DNA of 64,000 bases from Pisolithus tinctorius (Eukaryota > Basidiomycota > Agaricomycetes > Boletales > Pisolithaceae). The DNA lies in assembly GCA_024663395.1 (NCBI GenBank), contig JANFAH010000030.1, positions 186,001 to 250,000 of the forward strand. Reading direction: 5' to 3'. This document shows positions 7,836 to 16,690 of the stretch, one piece after another (position 1 is the stretch's first letter; the number at the start of each line of letters is the position of its first letter). Below the pieces are notes generated by a model that searched no databases, was not told the origin of the DNA, and was given only the letters and a program-made list of their open reading frames with translations. Position numbers and translations under genes: made by a program.

Positions 7836-9559
7836 ATGGCTCTTGGATGCTTCAAGGCATTGTGGTGTATTCGGCGGCCGCCTTCGCCGAGCGACGACGC
7901 AACTGTTCCACAAGTTCCCTCTCCCGTTGGAGCAGCTCAGCCCCCAGCCAGTACAGACATTCACGTCCCTGCACTGACTGAGGTTCTTGTCGAAGCCTCT
8001 GACTCTCCCTCAGTCAATAATGGGGGCGTTCGTGCTACCACAGCGGTCGAAAACATTCCGCCATGTTCTCCTGCGGGCCCTAGCCCTAGCAACGTGGATA
8101 TTCCCGCTCCCGTCCCTGCTCAAGGTGGTTGCTCGCGTTTTTTATGGTGTACCGCAACCCACGATTCCACGTTCTCCGGAAGAAAGTGTGGACACTCTTG
8201 TTCCCGTACACACAGAAGAAGTACCCACGGGTAAGCGTTGTACTTGTGAAGGGGACAAGCCTAAGAGCAGCAATGATCAGTGTCAGCCTCCGCACGCTCT
8301 AGGTTTCGCTTAGATCGTGTGAAAGCTAGAGAGCACATCGATCGCATCAAACGCTTTCGCATTCTCGTCATGGGCAGAGCCAATGCAGGTAAAACAACAA
8401 TCCTGCAGAGGGTCTGTAATACTACGGATGAACCAGAAATTTTCAATGGAGAAGGGGGGAAGGTGTGTATGTTTCATCGTATTTGTTTGAGATTAACAAC
8501 GTATCGGGTTGCATTCAGGTGGATGCTACTGTAGTGAAGGGTTCGCTAATGGTGAGGTGACTTGATGAATATTCTGCAGCAAATATTGAAGGGTTGAATG
8601 TGTCCAGCGCGGCTACCACAACATCGAGGATGAGCTGGTTTTTAAGAGTAATGAACGGTTTGTATTCCATGACTCATGTGGATTTGAAGCCGGAAGTGAA
8701 GGGGAGTTTGACGTGATGAAGGAAGTCGTGATGGATCGCGCCAAGACAACCAAGCTTGACAAGAGAATTCATGCCATATGGTATGGGCACTATGTCTGAC
8801 ACCCTAACCAAAGTGATGTGGTGTCTGTGATGGATTTAGGTTTTGCATTCCTTTGAATGATAGCCACAGGATGGTCACGGCTGCAGAAAAGAAGTTTTTT
8901 GATGAATGTGATACAGGACATGGTGTGTATATTGACCATACTCTGTTTGATGGTTTTAAATTTTAAGGTTTTTGTCACAGTTCCTGTAATTGTCTTGCTA
9001 ACAAAAACAGATACCTTGGCCTTGGATGCTTTCATGGAGCTCATTGATGATGGTGTGGATGAAGATGATGCAGTGGAAAAGGCTGCAGAGGTAGAAAGAA
9101 GGAAGCTGAATGAGTGTCTTGTAAAGGTCAAGGGTTGGTTGAATGAGTTGAGGTTTCCACCACATGACTATCTGTCACTCACTGGTGAGTATGCTAACCA
9201 TCACTCAAGAATGGCACAGTTTCAGAGAAAATAACTGCAGGAATGGACAAAGAGGGTGCTGAGTGTACACCCCTACTAACATGCACAGCAAATGCTTTAA
9301 GTGAGGAAGGACTGCAGCAGCTCCTCATATCATCACAACAGTCAAACCTGGGACTATGTTTGGAGTTTGCAATAACAAAGTAAGTGAGGAAGCAGAAGGA
9401 TAAAAATGTACTGATATGTGCAAGGACATTGAAGAAGTGCATGAATGCTTTTGTTGGCAAGATTAAACCAGCAACCCTTTCATATATCCTCTCATGGTGG
9501 TTTCCATATGTAAGAGAACAGTGAGTGGAATGGATGAGATACTGATTTGAGAGCAGGAA
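7836..9559 (+). CDS. P-loop G-domain-containing protein, 5' part of gene
   Basis: A TRAFAC-like GTPase of the kind annotated in mushroom-forming fungi as 'G domain-containing protein'; its cellular role is unknown. An N-terminal Ser/Pro-rich leader (7836 to about 8230) precedes the intron 8232-8280 (donor GTAAGC, acceptor ATCAG). The G1/Walker A motif is GRANAGKTTILQRV at about 8372-8412. After two more introns come VDATVVKGSLM and RGYHNIEDELVFKS, then FVFHDSCGFEAG (G3 region) at about 8663-8700, and, after an intron, CIPLNDSHRMVTAAEKKFFD. The next exon reads VPVIVLLTKTDTLALDAFM, where LTKTD is the G4-like guanine-specificity motif. Later exons give YLSLT, VSEKITAGMDKEG, LGLCLEFAITK and, after one more intron, TLKKCMNAFVGKIKPATLSY and ILSWWFPY, a hydrophobic end at about 9510. 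All joins are in frame. The exact N-terminus is uncertain: the leader frame must change before 8160, so an extra intron or a later ATG (8021) is possible. From about 8880 on the gene has almost no CpG. The coding frame seems to continue into the micro-exon array that follows. Confidence 0.8.
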
Positions 9560-9626
9560 GTGGGTGAAATTGTAAAAAATCTGACTTAGTGGATACTAAT
9601 ATGGCTATGGCCTGGGTTCATAGGAT

Positions 9627-11793
9627 GTGAGTGGAGTCACAGCAGGTGGTGGCAGGATTCTGATCATGTTCACTCCCACCCTTTGGGACTTGCATTCATA
9701 GGATGTGGGTGGAGTCATGGCAGGTGGTGGAAGCATTCTGACCATGTTCACTCCCACCCTTTTGGACTTGCATTCCTAGGGTGTGAGTGGAGCAATGGCA
9801 GGTGGTGGAAGCATTTCTGACCATGTTCACTCCCACCCTTTTGGACTTGCATTCATAGGCAGTGAGTGGAGTCATGGCAGGTGGTGGATGTGTTCTGACC
9901 ATGTTCACTCCCACCCTTTTGGACTTGCATTCATAGGGGGTGAGTGGAATCATAGCAGGTGGTGGAAGCATTCTGACTATGTTCACTCCCATCCTTTTGT
10001 ACTTGCATTCATAGTTAGTGAGTGGAGTCATGGCAAGTGGTGGAAGTATTCTGACCATGTTCACTCCCACCCTTTTGGACTTGCATTCATAGGGAGTGAG
10101 TGGAGTCATGGCAGGTGGTGGAAGCATTCTGACTGTGTTCACTCCCACCCATTTGGACTTGCATTCATAGTTTGTGAGTGGAGTCATGGCAGGTGGGGGA
10201 AGCATTCTGACCATGTTCACTGCCACCCATATTCATAGTTGGTAAGTGGAGTCATGGCAGGTGGTAGAAGCATTCTGACCATGTTCACTCCCACCCTTTT
10301 GGACATGCATTCATAGTTGGTGAGTGGAGTCATGACAGGTGGTGGAAGTGTTCTGACCACGTTCACTCCCACCCTTTTGGACTTGCACTCATAGGGAGTG
10401 AGTGGAGTCATGACATGTGGTGGAAGCATTCTGACCATGTTCACTCCCACCCTTTTGGACTTGCATTCATAGGATGTGAGTGGAGTCATGGCAGGTGGTG
10501 TGAGCATTCTGACCATGTTCACTCCCACCCTTTTGGACATGCATTCATAGGCAGTGAGTGGAGTCATGGCAGATGGTGGAAGCATTCTGACCATGTTCAC
10601 TCACACCCTTTTGGACTTGCATTCACAGGAAGTGAGTGGAGCAATGACAGGTGGTGGAAGCATTCTGACCATGTTCACTCCCACCCTTTTGGACTTGCAT
10701 TCATAGTTTGTGAGTGAGTGATGGCAGGTGGTGGAAGCATTCTGACCACATTCACTCCCATTTGGACTTGCATTCATAGTTGGTGAGTGGAGTCATGACA
10801 GGTGGTGGAAACATTCTGACCATGTTTGCTCCCACCCATTTGGACTTGCATTCATAGAAAGTGAGTGGAGTCATGGCAGGTAGTGGAAATATTCTGGTCA
10901 TGTTCACTCCCACCCTTTTGGACATGCATTCATAGGCAGTGAGTGGAGTCATGGCAGGTGGTGGAAGCATTCTGACCATGTTCACTCCCACCCTTTTGGG
11001 CTTGCATTCATAGGTAGTGAGTGGAGACATGGCAAGTAGTGGAAGCATTCTGACCATGTTCACTTCCACTCTTTTGGACTTGCATTCATAGGAAGTGAGT
11101 GGAGTCATGGCAAGTGGTGGAAGCATTCTGACCATGTTCACTTCCACCCATTTGGACTTGCATTCATAGGAAGTGAGCAGAGTCATGGCAGGTGGTGGAA
11201 GCATTCTGACCATGTTCACTCCCACCCATTTGGACTTGCATTCATAGGCAGTGAGCAAAGTCATGGCAGGTGGTGGAAGTATTCTGACCATGTCCATTCC
11301 TACCCTTTTGGACTTGCATTCATAGGAAGTGAGTGGAGTCATGGCATGTGGTGGAAGCATTCTGACCATGTTCACTCCCACCCATTTGGACTTGCATTCA
11401 TAGGGAGTGAGTGGAGTGATGGCAGGTGGTAGAAGCACTCTGACCATGTTCACTCCCACCCATTTGGACTTGCATTCATAGGATGTGAGTGGTGCCATGG
11501 CAGGTGGTGGAAGCATTCTGACCATGTTCACTCCCACCCTTTTGGACATGCATTCATAGTTGGTGAGTGGAGTCATGACAGGTGGTGGAAGTATTCTGAC
11601 CATGTTCACTCCCACCCATTTGGACTTGCATTCATAGAAAGTAAGTGGAGTCATGGCAGGTGGTGGAAGCATTCTGACCATGTCCACTCCCACCCTTTTG
11701 GACTTGCATTCATAGGAAGTGAGTGGAGTAATGACAGGTAGTGGAAGCATTCTGACCATGTTCACTCCCACCCCTTTGGACTTGCATTCTTAG
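9627..11793 (+). repeat. 78-bp tandem array of 28 intron-like units separated by 3-nt spacers
   Basis: Twenty-eight copies of a 78-bp unit. Each copy has a 75-nt body that starts GTGAGTGGAGTCATGGCAGG, contains the branch-point-like ATTCTGAC in the middle, and ends with a pyrimidine-rich tract and TTGCATTCATAG. Between the TAG of one body and the GT of the next there are always exactly 3 nt, starting with GAT 9624-9626, GAT 9702-9704, GGT 9780-9782, GCA 9859-9861 and GGG 9937-9939. Body lengths vary (75 usual; 76 at 9783-9858; 65 at 10174-10238; 70 at 10710-10779), but the 3-nt gap does not. Substitutions at the ends keep splice consensus: donors GTGAGT, GTAAGT, GTGGGT, GTGAGC; acceptors ATAG, CTAG, ACAG, TTAG. 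On the minus strand the same array is open as 26-residue repeats because 78 is divisible by 3. The array follows directly on the G-domain exons. Confidence 0.97.
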
Positions 11794-11796
11794 GTG

Positions 11797-12390
11797 GTGA
11801 GTGCAGTCATGGCAGGTGGTGAATGCATTCTAACCATGGTTTGCCACTATGGATGTTGGGTTTCTAGGATGTGAGCACAGTCATAGCAGGTTTTGCTAGA
11901 TGTCTGCTCACCATTTCCCCCTCTAAACTGATGCATATTTGGTCATAGCATGTGAGTCTCATTCAAGGTTATCCCACAGGTTGCTGATATTACATAGATG
12001 GTCAGCTCATTCAATGTTATTCCACAAATTTCTGATATTGTGTAGATGGTAAGTCTCATTAATTTATCTATGCCACATTCATACTTTACAATCTTTCAGG
12101 ATGTAGGTGCACATTTTCATGGAGGTTCAATTTGACCCTTATATCTCTATTTGCATGTATCAGTATGTTAGTCATCACCATTCAGAATTATTTCCCATGC
12201 TAACATACTTTGTAGAATGTGTGCATTTTTTTGAATCCACATGATGTTGACTAACAATGTTTGTAGTTGGTTTGTGGCCCTGTTTCTCATTGACATTACC
12301 TGAAATGGTCCTATGACATACTGCTCAGGTGGTCAGTTTTGTCTCCCTTACTCTGCCATGGACAGATCACTTGATTTGACAGCATCACAG
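11797..12390 (+). other. run of ten dissimilar intron-like units with 3-nt spacers
   Basis: Downstream of the 78-bp array the unit sequence changes but the architecture stays the same. Units run 11797-11867, 11871-11948, 11952-11997, 12001-12045, 12049-12099, 12103-12173, 12177-12215, 12219-12266, 12270-12328 and 12332-12390. Each starts with GT (GTGAGT, GTGAGC, GTCAGC, GTAAGT, GTAGGT, GTTAGT, GTGTGC, GTTTGT, GTCAGT) and ends in TAG or CAG; most have CTAAC, CTGAT or TTGAC near the 3' end. They are separated by the triplets GAT, CAT, ATG, ATG, GAT, TAT, AAT, TTG and GTG. The first two units still resemble the 78-bp unit; the rest do not. Units of 39-46 nt would be short for fungal introns, and some boundaries (12173, 12215) were chosen with the 3-nt pattern in mind. 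Confidence 0.6.
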
Positions 12391-12780
12391 CCTACCATTG
12401 CCACTCCTTCATCATCTTCTGTCCAAATGCCTACTTTGGCCATATCACCACAGCCTTCAATGCAATTTATTGCAGAACATGGCATTGGTAATTGATATCC
12501 TGTCATGATTTCACACCAATAACCCACAATTGCAGGTTCTGTTCTTGTGTTTGAATATTTATACTTCTTGTTGCAGGCCAACAAACTGAATAGTGATTTG
12601 CAGACAGACCTTAATTTGGCTGTCACAACATATCAAACATCAGGTCTCCAAGCTACTGTTGCCAAACTTATCACAGCTGCATTTCAGCAACATGGTGAAG
12701 ATGTGGAGGCTTTAACTCCCATCCTTGCGGGTATTGCAAAGGAGAATCAGATGTGTATGACACTATTTCCTCAACACTAA
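12391..12780 (+). CDS. C-terminal exons, probably of the G-domain gene
   Basis: The first exon, 12391-12487, encodes a Ser/Thr/Pro-rich stretch (PTIATPSSSSVQMPTLAISP) and SMQFIAEHGIG. An intron at 12488-12535 (GTAATT..TTGCAG) joins in frame to SVLVFEYLYFLLQANKLN and then to a helical region with TYQTSGLQATVAKLITAAF and DVEALTPILAGIAKENQ, stopping at 12780. The FE-aromatic-hydrophobic segment followed by a helix with TYQTSG fits my recollection of the C-terminal half of fungal G-domain proteins; that is family knowledge recalled, not a search result. The frame agrees with the upstream gene if every intervening triplet is an in-phase codon. An alternative is a separate small gene starting at ATG 12360. 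Confidence 0.5.
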
Positions 12781-15904: not shown

Positions 15905-16330
15905 CACACTACAAAAAGAACACTATAGGGCTATCCTGTACTACTACAAACCTGTGGTAATCAAATTGGTAGTAGATTACTAGCCCATTAGCCAACAACC
16001 CTAATCAACTATGTTCACTTTCTTGGTAATCAACAAAGCACATTCTAGGGCTGTCCTGAACTACTACCAACTTGTGGTAATCAAATTGGTTGTAGTTAAC
16101 TAGCCCATTAGCCAACAACCCTAATCAACTATGCTTTCTTGGTAATCAAAAAAGCACACTCTAGGACTATTCCATACTACTACCAACTTGTGACAATCAA
16201 ATTGGTAGTAGTCTACTAGCCCATTGGCCAACAACCCTAATTAACTACACTTCTTTGGTAATCAAAAAAGCATACTCTAGGGCTACACAATACTACCAAT
16301 TTGTGGTAATCAAATAGGTAGTAGACAAAG
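15905..16330. repeat. tandem repeat, about 115-120 bp, four copies
   Basis: Four degenerate copies share GGTAATCAAATTGGTAGTAG, CTAGCCCATTAGCCAACAAC and CTAATCAACTATG, followed by TTGGTAATCAA and an ACTCTAGGGCT block. The spacing between equivalent points falls from about 120 to 113 bp along the array. Confidence 0.85.
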
Positions 16331-16558
16331 TAGCTCCATACTGGGAAAAGGAAGTTGTTTAGTTGGCTTTGTACTGTTGCACAAAAGGCATGAGTTTTGG
16401 TGTTCATAATTGTGCATTTTTGGGCATTTGGTGGACTTGGAGGAGTTTTTGAGGCTTAGTAGCTGTGCTACACTACAGAATTTCCTAATCATCTATACTT
16501 TTTTGCTGATCAAGCATTACCCTTCCTTTACTAGTCACATTATACTTATTTGGTAGTC

Positions 16559-16690
16559 AAACAAGCAGACACTACATAACAAACACTACACTACACTACA
16601 CTACACTTTTTGGGAAGTCAAAAATGCAGCCACTACACTACAAACACCATGCTGCACTGCACTACACTTTTTGGGTAGTCAAAAATGACA
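16559..16690. repeat. short repeat with ACTACACT tracts
   Basis: Two copies, each an ACTACACTACA-type tract followed by CTTTTTGGG(A/T)AGTCAAAAATG. The wording overlaps with the preceding 115-120 bp repeat (AATCAAAAAAGC), so it may be a more diverged part of the same array. Confidence 0.55.

Follow-up and report, generated by a model that had tools for sequence, protein, structure and literature searches.

A GTPase gene family of Pisolithus with a hypervariable segment probably encoded one codon per exon

The gene in the window and its chain of triplets

The subject of this report is a gene on the plus strand of a 64,000-nucleotide (nt) stretch of DNA from Pisolithus tinctorius (GenBank assembly GCA_024663395.1, contig JANFAH010000030.1, positions 186,001 to 250,000), which we call the window and number from its first letter. 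The gene has a GTPase head and a C-terminal domain, and between the two lies a run of intron-like bodies, most of them near-identical tandem copies, separated by exactly 3 nt. Judging from the sequence, we consider it very probable that the gene belongs to a GTPase family with a hypervariable segment encoded codon by codon, and that the 39 lone codons of the window are spliced into one stretch of protein. The layout is as follows.

7836..8234, plus strand: likely first coding exon (MALGCFKALWCIRRPPSPSDDA...), from the list of open reading frames (ORFs); its 3' end is approximate and its start resembles MAPGCFNVLWCIRRLPSASNDA of the public protein P0002
8283..9509, plus strand: GTPase domain, seven exons ending ...WWFPY, from homologs and Pfam; the 5' boundary of the first exon is uncertain
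8283-8462, 8519-8551, 8608-8780, 8840-8922, 8981-9184, 9241-9379 and 9425-9509, plus strand: the GTPase exons
9510..9556, plus strand: putative intron preceding the first one-codon exon
9557..12331, plus strand: predicted chain of 39 one-codon exons and 38 introns, codons EDDGAGLGFLLGDAEFLKAVEEAEGDLKEVDHMMDYNLV
9617..11838, plus strand: near-identical part of the chain (28.7 copies of 78 nt according to TRF), with conserved intron bodies and hypervariable codons
11868..12331, plus strand: dissimilar 3' part, with predicted one-codon exons D H M M D Y N L V
12332..12390, plus strand: putative last intron, GTCAGT...TCACAG
12391..12487, plus strand: exon PTIATPSSSSVQMPTLAISPQPSMQFIAEHGIG, in phase 0 relative to the codon chain
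12536..12780, plus strand: exon of the C-terminal domain, ending in TAA, placed from relatives; helical in the model of the relative P0008

Between 9557 and 12331 there are 39 AG-NNN-GT junctions, each triplet being flanked by YAG and GTNNG, with 38 bodies between them. All 38 bodies run from GT to YAG, 34 start with a GTRRGY donor, 34 contain CTRAY, and their length of 45-78 nt is that of short fungal introns. The repeat part consists of 28 units (25 with bodies of 75 nt, the others of 76, 70 and 65 nt), and the nine junctions from 11868 on, with bodies of 45-78 nt, lie outside the repeat proper. A first-pass annotation of this DNA had read the plus strand as about 39 three-nucleotide exons with every gap 3 nt long, with donor, branch-like and acceptor motifs in each unit and with the same four body lengths in a 28-unit array, and all of this holds. 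The four donors other than GTRRGY (GTCAGC, GTTAGT, GTGTGC and GTTTGT) all lie within the dissimilar end. The "about ten" dissimilar units after the array keep the gap of 3 and amount to nine junctions, with bodies of 45-78 nt.

The constancy of the gap does not depend on the repeat. In 11865-12400 the YAG-N3-GTNNG pattern forms a chain of nine junctions at gap 3, while gaps of 0-2 and 4-8 give at most one, and in 2000 dinucleotide shuffles of the same region the longest chain never exceeds two. The GTPase exons are separated by GT-AG introns of 45-59 nt. If all the predicted exons are joined, the coding sequence from 8283 onward comprises 48 exons and 1356 nt, with a single stop at its end. 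ATC ACT TGA at 12365 was considered as a stop codon and rejected: since relatives place the acceptor at 12390 and the PTI exon in phase 0, the TGA lies inside the last intron.

On the minus strand an ORF of 339 amino acids (10752-11771) crosses part of the array. It is open because 78 is a multiple of 3, and it is unlikely to be a gene given the frame-breaking units.

The triplets and the gene family across the genome

In a whole-genome scan, which is independent of chain parsing and detects only units with exactly these ends, TTCATAG-N3-GTGAGTGGA occurs 1154 times, the version with two free bases four times and the version with four never. Not one of the 1154 gaps is a stop (neither TAA, TGA nor TAG was found), and TAT or TGT occurs 94 times. 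The near-identical introns that were read closely lie in loci of the GTPase family; the 1154 sites were counted irrespective of gene assignment. One of the four two-base gaps belongs to a unit of locus L030. The other three are on contig C167 at 42.0-42.5 kb, a stretch that may be a decaying copy, because the adjoining match to the C-terminal domain (C167:43889-44245) contains stops.

Among 532 units with bodies of 75 nt, variation at the three gap positions is 1.82, 1.89 and 1.47 bits, against a body mean of 0.29 and maximum of 1.20, and the gap is therefore the single hypervariable place of a conserved unit. These 532 triplets (locus L042, with its four units, is in the counts, while L043, lacking an array core, was left out) contain no stop, whereas base composition predicts 57-60. 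When each triplet is counted once per array, there are 173 distinct types, none of them a stop, against an expectation of 17.4 (P about 1e-8). Genome-wide, only 1 of the 1154 units has C directly before the donor; for comparison, C is found in 50 and 53 of the 532 triplets at codon positions 1 and 2, and in the GTPase exons at 56 of 299 third positions. At broken junctions (L022, L030, L035) the parser picked an internal GTG, and those rows are kept in the counts. Of the 772 triplets from automatic parsing of the chains, three did come out as stops, in each case at the first link, and we rejected them as over-runs of the parser: the TAA of L039 belongs to the intron preceding the WFPY exon, L040 is nearly identical to L039, and the TGA of L034 falls in the intron that precedes an AAT codon overlooked by the parser. 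After trimming of the first two triplets and the last one per chain, 0 of 726 are stops.

Searches of the 92.5-Mb genome with the two flanks gave 24 and 21 places, and the codon-chain layout is present in 22 of the 24 loci read (the window included), with chains of 11 to 88 links. The remaining two, L042 and L043 (C2:4.83 Mb and 4.85 Mb), are likely remnants, one with four units only and the other a flank without an array core. The domain downstream of the array has 141 matches in the genome. Typically, a chain begins with one or two semi-conserved codons, continues with variable ones and ends mostly in M D H N L V, which are also mostly the final six codons of the dissimilar 3' part in the sister copies of the window gene. 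The first-pass reading as a gene segment of one-codon exons is supported, but its single odd gene is too narrow an idea, because the layout belongs to a gene family; the hypervariable triplets, the lack of stops, the frame of the flanking exons and the recurrence across the genome, on which it was silent, are all seen here. On contig C17 there is a second subfamily, mostly of 80-nt units, with 28 junctions and no stop triplet; reading straight through it would therefore shift the frame at every unit.

Over a compared length of 5-6 kb, three locus pairs on different contigs (L025/L030, L037/L038 and L039/L040) are near-identical. Each pair may represent two nuclear haplotypes or a recent duplication, and its differences are too few for comparing rates of change in codons and introns. 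L025 and L030 both sit about 10 kb from the starts of their contigs.

The 3' part could be aligned in 15 of the 22 copies (18 were located by motif and 3 near-duplicates dropped), and identity is 99.3% at splice dinucleotides, 91.4% in codons and 83.5% in intron interiors. In all 13 copies, the window included, in which the MPTLA motif was found, an AG precedes the C-terminal exon and the exon opens in phase 0 (the nine copies without a match to the motif were left out of this count). The GTPase exons are open through all seven in 14 of the 22 copies and through the six covered in 2 more, and two others are partly covered. The 14 open copies form 91 pairs, with medians of 0.088 for dN, 0.267 for dS and 0.35 for dN/dS, the ratio being computed where dS > 0.02.

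The GTPase exons have 1217 homologs, the first of which is 80% identical over 85% of the query, and the window gene carries the P-loop GRANAGKT of the family. All homologs with names among the 120 listed of the 1217 are from Pisolithus. Pfam assigns Arf (23.7 bits, cut-off 22.3), while MMR_HSR1 falls below its own cut-off. The C-terminal domain of the window gene is recognizable by AEHGIG...FEYLYFLLQ. In the AlphaFold model of P0008, which lacks the segment, the joining point lies between the GTPase head and the C-terminal domain. With this model, whose mean pLDDT is 62.8, the best Foldseek match is Irga6 (E 1.4e-5, TM 0.26 and 0.32), and the solved structures closest in fold, though at low TM, are those of interferon-inducible p47 and dynamin-like GTPases. 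That the hypervariable segment serves in binding or recognition is our guess.

The arrays also differ from one another in a characteristic way. In 46 of 51 array-by-amino-acid sets a single codon is used per amino acid (glutamate is GAA in most arrays and GAG in L034 and L035), which points to copied units, not to independent mutation. Intron bodies within one array can be as little as 1-1.5% diverged (L025, L027) despite differing codons. Units that have a triplet in common are alike up to 15 nt away from it (P=0.003); the resemblance is weaker over 16-45 nt (P=0.09) and absent over 46-75 nt (P=0.24), in a test that left out the near-duplicates L030, L038 and L040. Nearly exact repeats of blocks of 2-4 units occur in 6 of 15 arrays. 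At loci whose flanks are 95-97% alike, the trimmed codon strings range from 5 to 66 residues, and 20 to 80% of the shorter one matches in a gap-tolerant alignment. We infer that recombination and conversion inside introns, moving single codons, explain these patterns, and that selection for a varied segment keeps the codons different.

A few kb 3' of the window gene there are further tandem repeats, at 15913-16324 (3.5 copies of a 116-nt unit) and 16537-16687 (2.5 copies of a 61-nt unit).

Public protein models and other explanations

Among the public proteins, P0034 of P. tinctorius (BKA82DRAFT_4223615), on a contig of 611571 bases, has the stretch HLVVDGGQGHYGLVGHYGLLVVDVLRGGHHVDYVRRYGDLDYNRLS after WFPF, and its tyrosines are spaced by 6, 16, 4 and 5 residues, versus TAT units 6, 17, 4 and 5 apart in the array of contig C41. 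The positions of CAT units on C41 were predicted beforehand from P0034; four of four were found at those very bases, and C41 has no CAT unit besides them. CAT makes up 24 of the 1154 units, and the likelihood of four chance matches is about 2e-7. Nine residues of P0034, spanning 33, were checked against the C41 chain in all. Given that the CAT predictions came true, the annotated model P0034 therefore joins a run of one-codon exons. Ab initio gene predictors seldom place such exons. Together with the absence of stops from all 1154 triplets and the phase-0 continuity with the flanking exons, the nine residues support the earlier suggestion that each codon is a separate micro-exon, and splicing of the window's own chain seems likely.

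Other public models are less direct. The ORFs of P0033 (473 amino acids, 1585-nt contig) and P0053 (406 amino acids, 1371-nt contig) fill their contigs and end in intron-like read-through peptides, the match to the unit intron being clear for P0053 and weak for P0033. Because the contigs are too short for six introns and the ends are read through, we read both as partly spliced transcripts; from their label, the lgn-source contigs are probably assembled contigs of a sequencing archive. P0033 together with the read-through peptides, used as a query, returned only P0033, P0027 and P0053. The P. tinctorius models P0027 and P0002 run past WFPF/WFPY into the first intron of the chain and stop there, and such genes are therefore mis-annotated. 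In P. microcarpus, P0018 and P0019 are apparently one gene, whose two annotations differ by a stretch of 56 residues at the position of the codon chain. The stretch of P0026 was considered as the product of the C17 array, which was not borne out, as the codons differ in the parts read.

Several observations weigh against our reading. P0034 is an imperfect model, lacking one of the C41 units as well as the usual SISIPTLS exon. The read-through scores are weak (41 for P0033 versus a shuffle maximum of 38, and 48 versus 42 for P0041, shuffles being scored against only 300 of the 448 intron peptides). A query of predicted tails (414 residues from 10 of the 22 tails, the E/R-rich ones of L028, L035 and several others being left out) found no protein at E<=10 among 7993 candidates scored. 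Four copies (L022, L030, L033, L041) have frameshifts or deletions in GTPase exons, so that dN/dS speaks for the open copies only, and single junctions are broken in L022 (donor GT to AT), L035 (acceptor AG to GG) and L030 (one base short). The association of triplet and body reaches P<0.05 individually in just 5 of 15 arrays, a weak linkage for the recombination step. Finally, 6 of the 12 public models with the C-terminal part (P0008, P0009, P0018, P0020 and P0075 of P. microcarpus and P0058 of P. tinctorius) join WFPY/WFPF directly to that part and skip the array, P0046 has only a few residues there, and leaving the whole array out of the window gene also gives a product in frame. In our opinion, the array-skipping models, the unfound tails and the broken units are compatible with frequent skipping but not with a neutral satellite.

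The last of these observations are what would be expected if the whole array were removed as one intron of 2.9 kb, or by nested splices, with the codons normally untranslated. We regard this as quite improbable: selection on the triplets is needed to explain why they contain no stops and why C hardly ever precedes the donor, the codons are present in P0034 and P0019 has its 56 residues at their position, and the introns between the GTPase exons are just 45-59 nt long. A different question is how the layout arose. An ordinary exon might have been split at each codon by a burst of introner-like insertions, the codons being old and the introns young, as the slight divergence of the bodies within L025 and L027 alongside differing codons could suggest. 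However, we know of no introner insertion at exactly every third base, and the single codon per amino acid in each array points to copied units. Moreover, flanking one-codon exons are common to the copies while the codon strings at 95-97% flank identity are of quite different length; the codons therefore changed after the layout arose, and we hold such an origin to be unlikely.

There is very little probability that the array is a non-coding satellite whose unit begins with GT and ends with AG by chance. Its units are indeed homogeneous and tandem, but a satellite does not account for triplets that are hypervariable yet stop-free (by which this reading is contradicted), for dissimilar units that keep the 3-nt gap, or for a phase continuous with exons on both sides, the GTPase exons being open with dN/dS of 0.35. 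Least probable of all, to the point of being negligible, is a protein of 26-residue repeats read straight through on either strand. The minus-strand ORF and a longest open minus-strand stretch of 345 codons would fit it, but it is contradicted by the frame-breaking units: 61 of 606 unit lengths (68 to 84 nt) are not multiples of 3, the second subfamily has mostly 80-nt units, and the unspliced plus strand meets a stop 4 residues past WFPY.

A possible mechanism and its relation to known systems

If the chain is indeed spliced codon by codon, the short successive introns would be removed co-transcriptionally, the growing exon would gain a codon with every removal, and a GTPase carrying a hypervariable segment would result. 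Since the exons are one codon long and the introns in phase 0, any skipping of an exon, and any gain or loss of a unit by unequal recombination, keeps the frame. The near-identical introns would likely be the recombination sites at which single codons are duplicated and reordered, and it is probably through recombination within them that the family diversified. Selection would purge stop codons, and splicing would constrain the base before the donor. It is tempting to go further and regard the array as a codon-cassette generator of diversity, in which the codons of a recognition segment, each being a separate exon, are inserted, deleted, swapped or omitted in frame as single amino acids, with each nucleus and each transcript having its own repertoire. 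This proposal is tentative, and we would put it at somewhat below an even chance.

If the one-codon exons are confirmed in RNA, microexons would pass from a curiosity to a principle of protein coding, with tens of them in succession and probably over a thousand in one genome. The family would then be a test of how the spliceosome handles exons too small for exon definition, and an example of a frame-proof route to protein evolution one residue at a time. Similar genes may hide in other fungi, and gene annotation mis-models them. A literature search, judged from listings apart from parts of three papers, found no description of chains of one-codon exons. A term search of the main text of the Pisolithus genome paper (PMC10066745) found "exon" once and neither "intron" nor "GTPase".

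Known systems resemble the Pisolithus chain in parts. The micro-exon genes (MEGs) of schistosomes likewise contain series of very short exons that preserve the frame, and they play a part in protein variation; their exons are several codons long and their introns unrelated, whereas in Pisolithus an exon would be a single codon and the introns are tandem copies of nearly the same sequence, so that we see a resemblance only. Introner-like elements of fungi, as described in PMC4457414, are hundreds of near-identical spliceosomal introns dispersed in unrelated genes, while the Pisolithus introns stand head-to-tail in one gene family, 3 nt apart. At the ratchet points of recursive splicing, acceptor and donor almost touch and a stepwise removal is expected, much as here, but they are juxtaposed, whereas in Pisolithus a codon would be retained between them, tens of times in succession. 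Isolated exons of 3 nt, and even of 1 nt, have been described, and the 1-nt exon of Arabidopsis APC11 indicates that the spliceosome copes with exons of one to a few nt (PMC4674806). In APC11 this is a lone exon of one gene; in Pisolithus it would be a chain of them.

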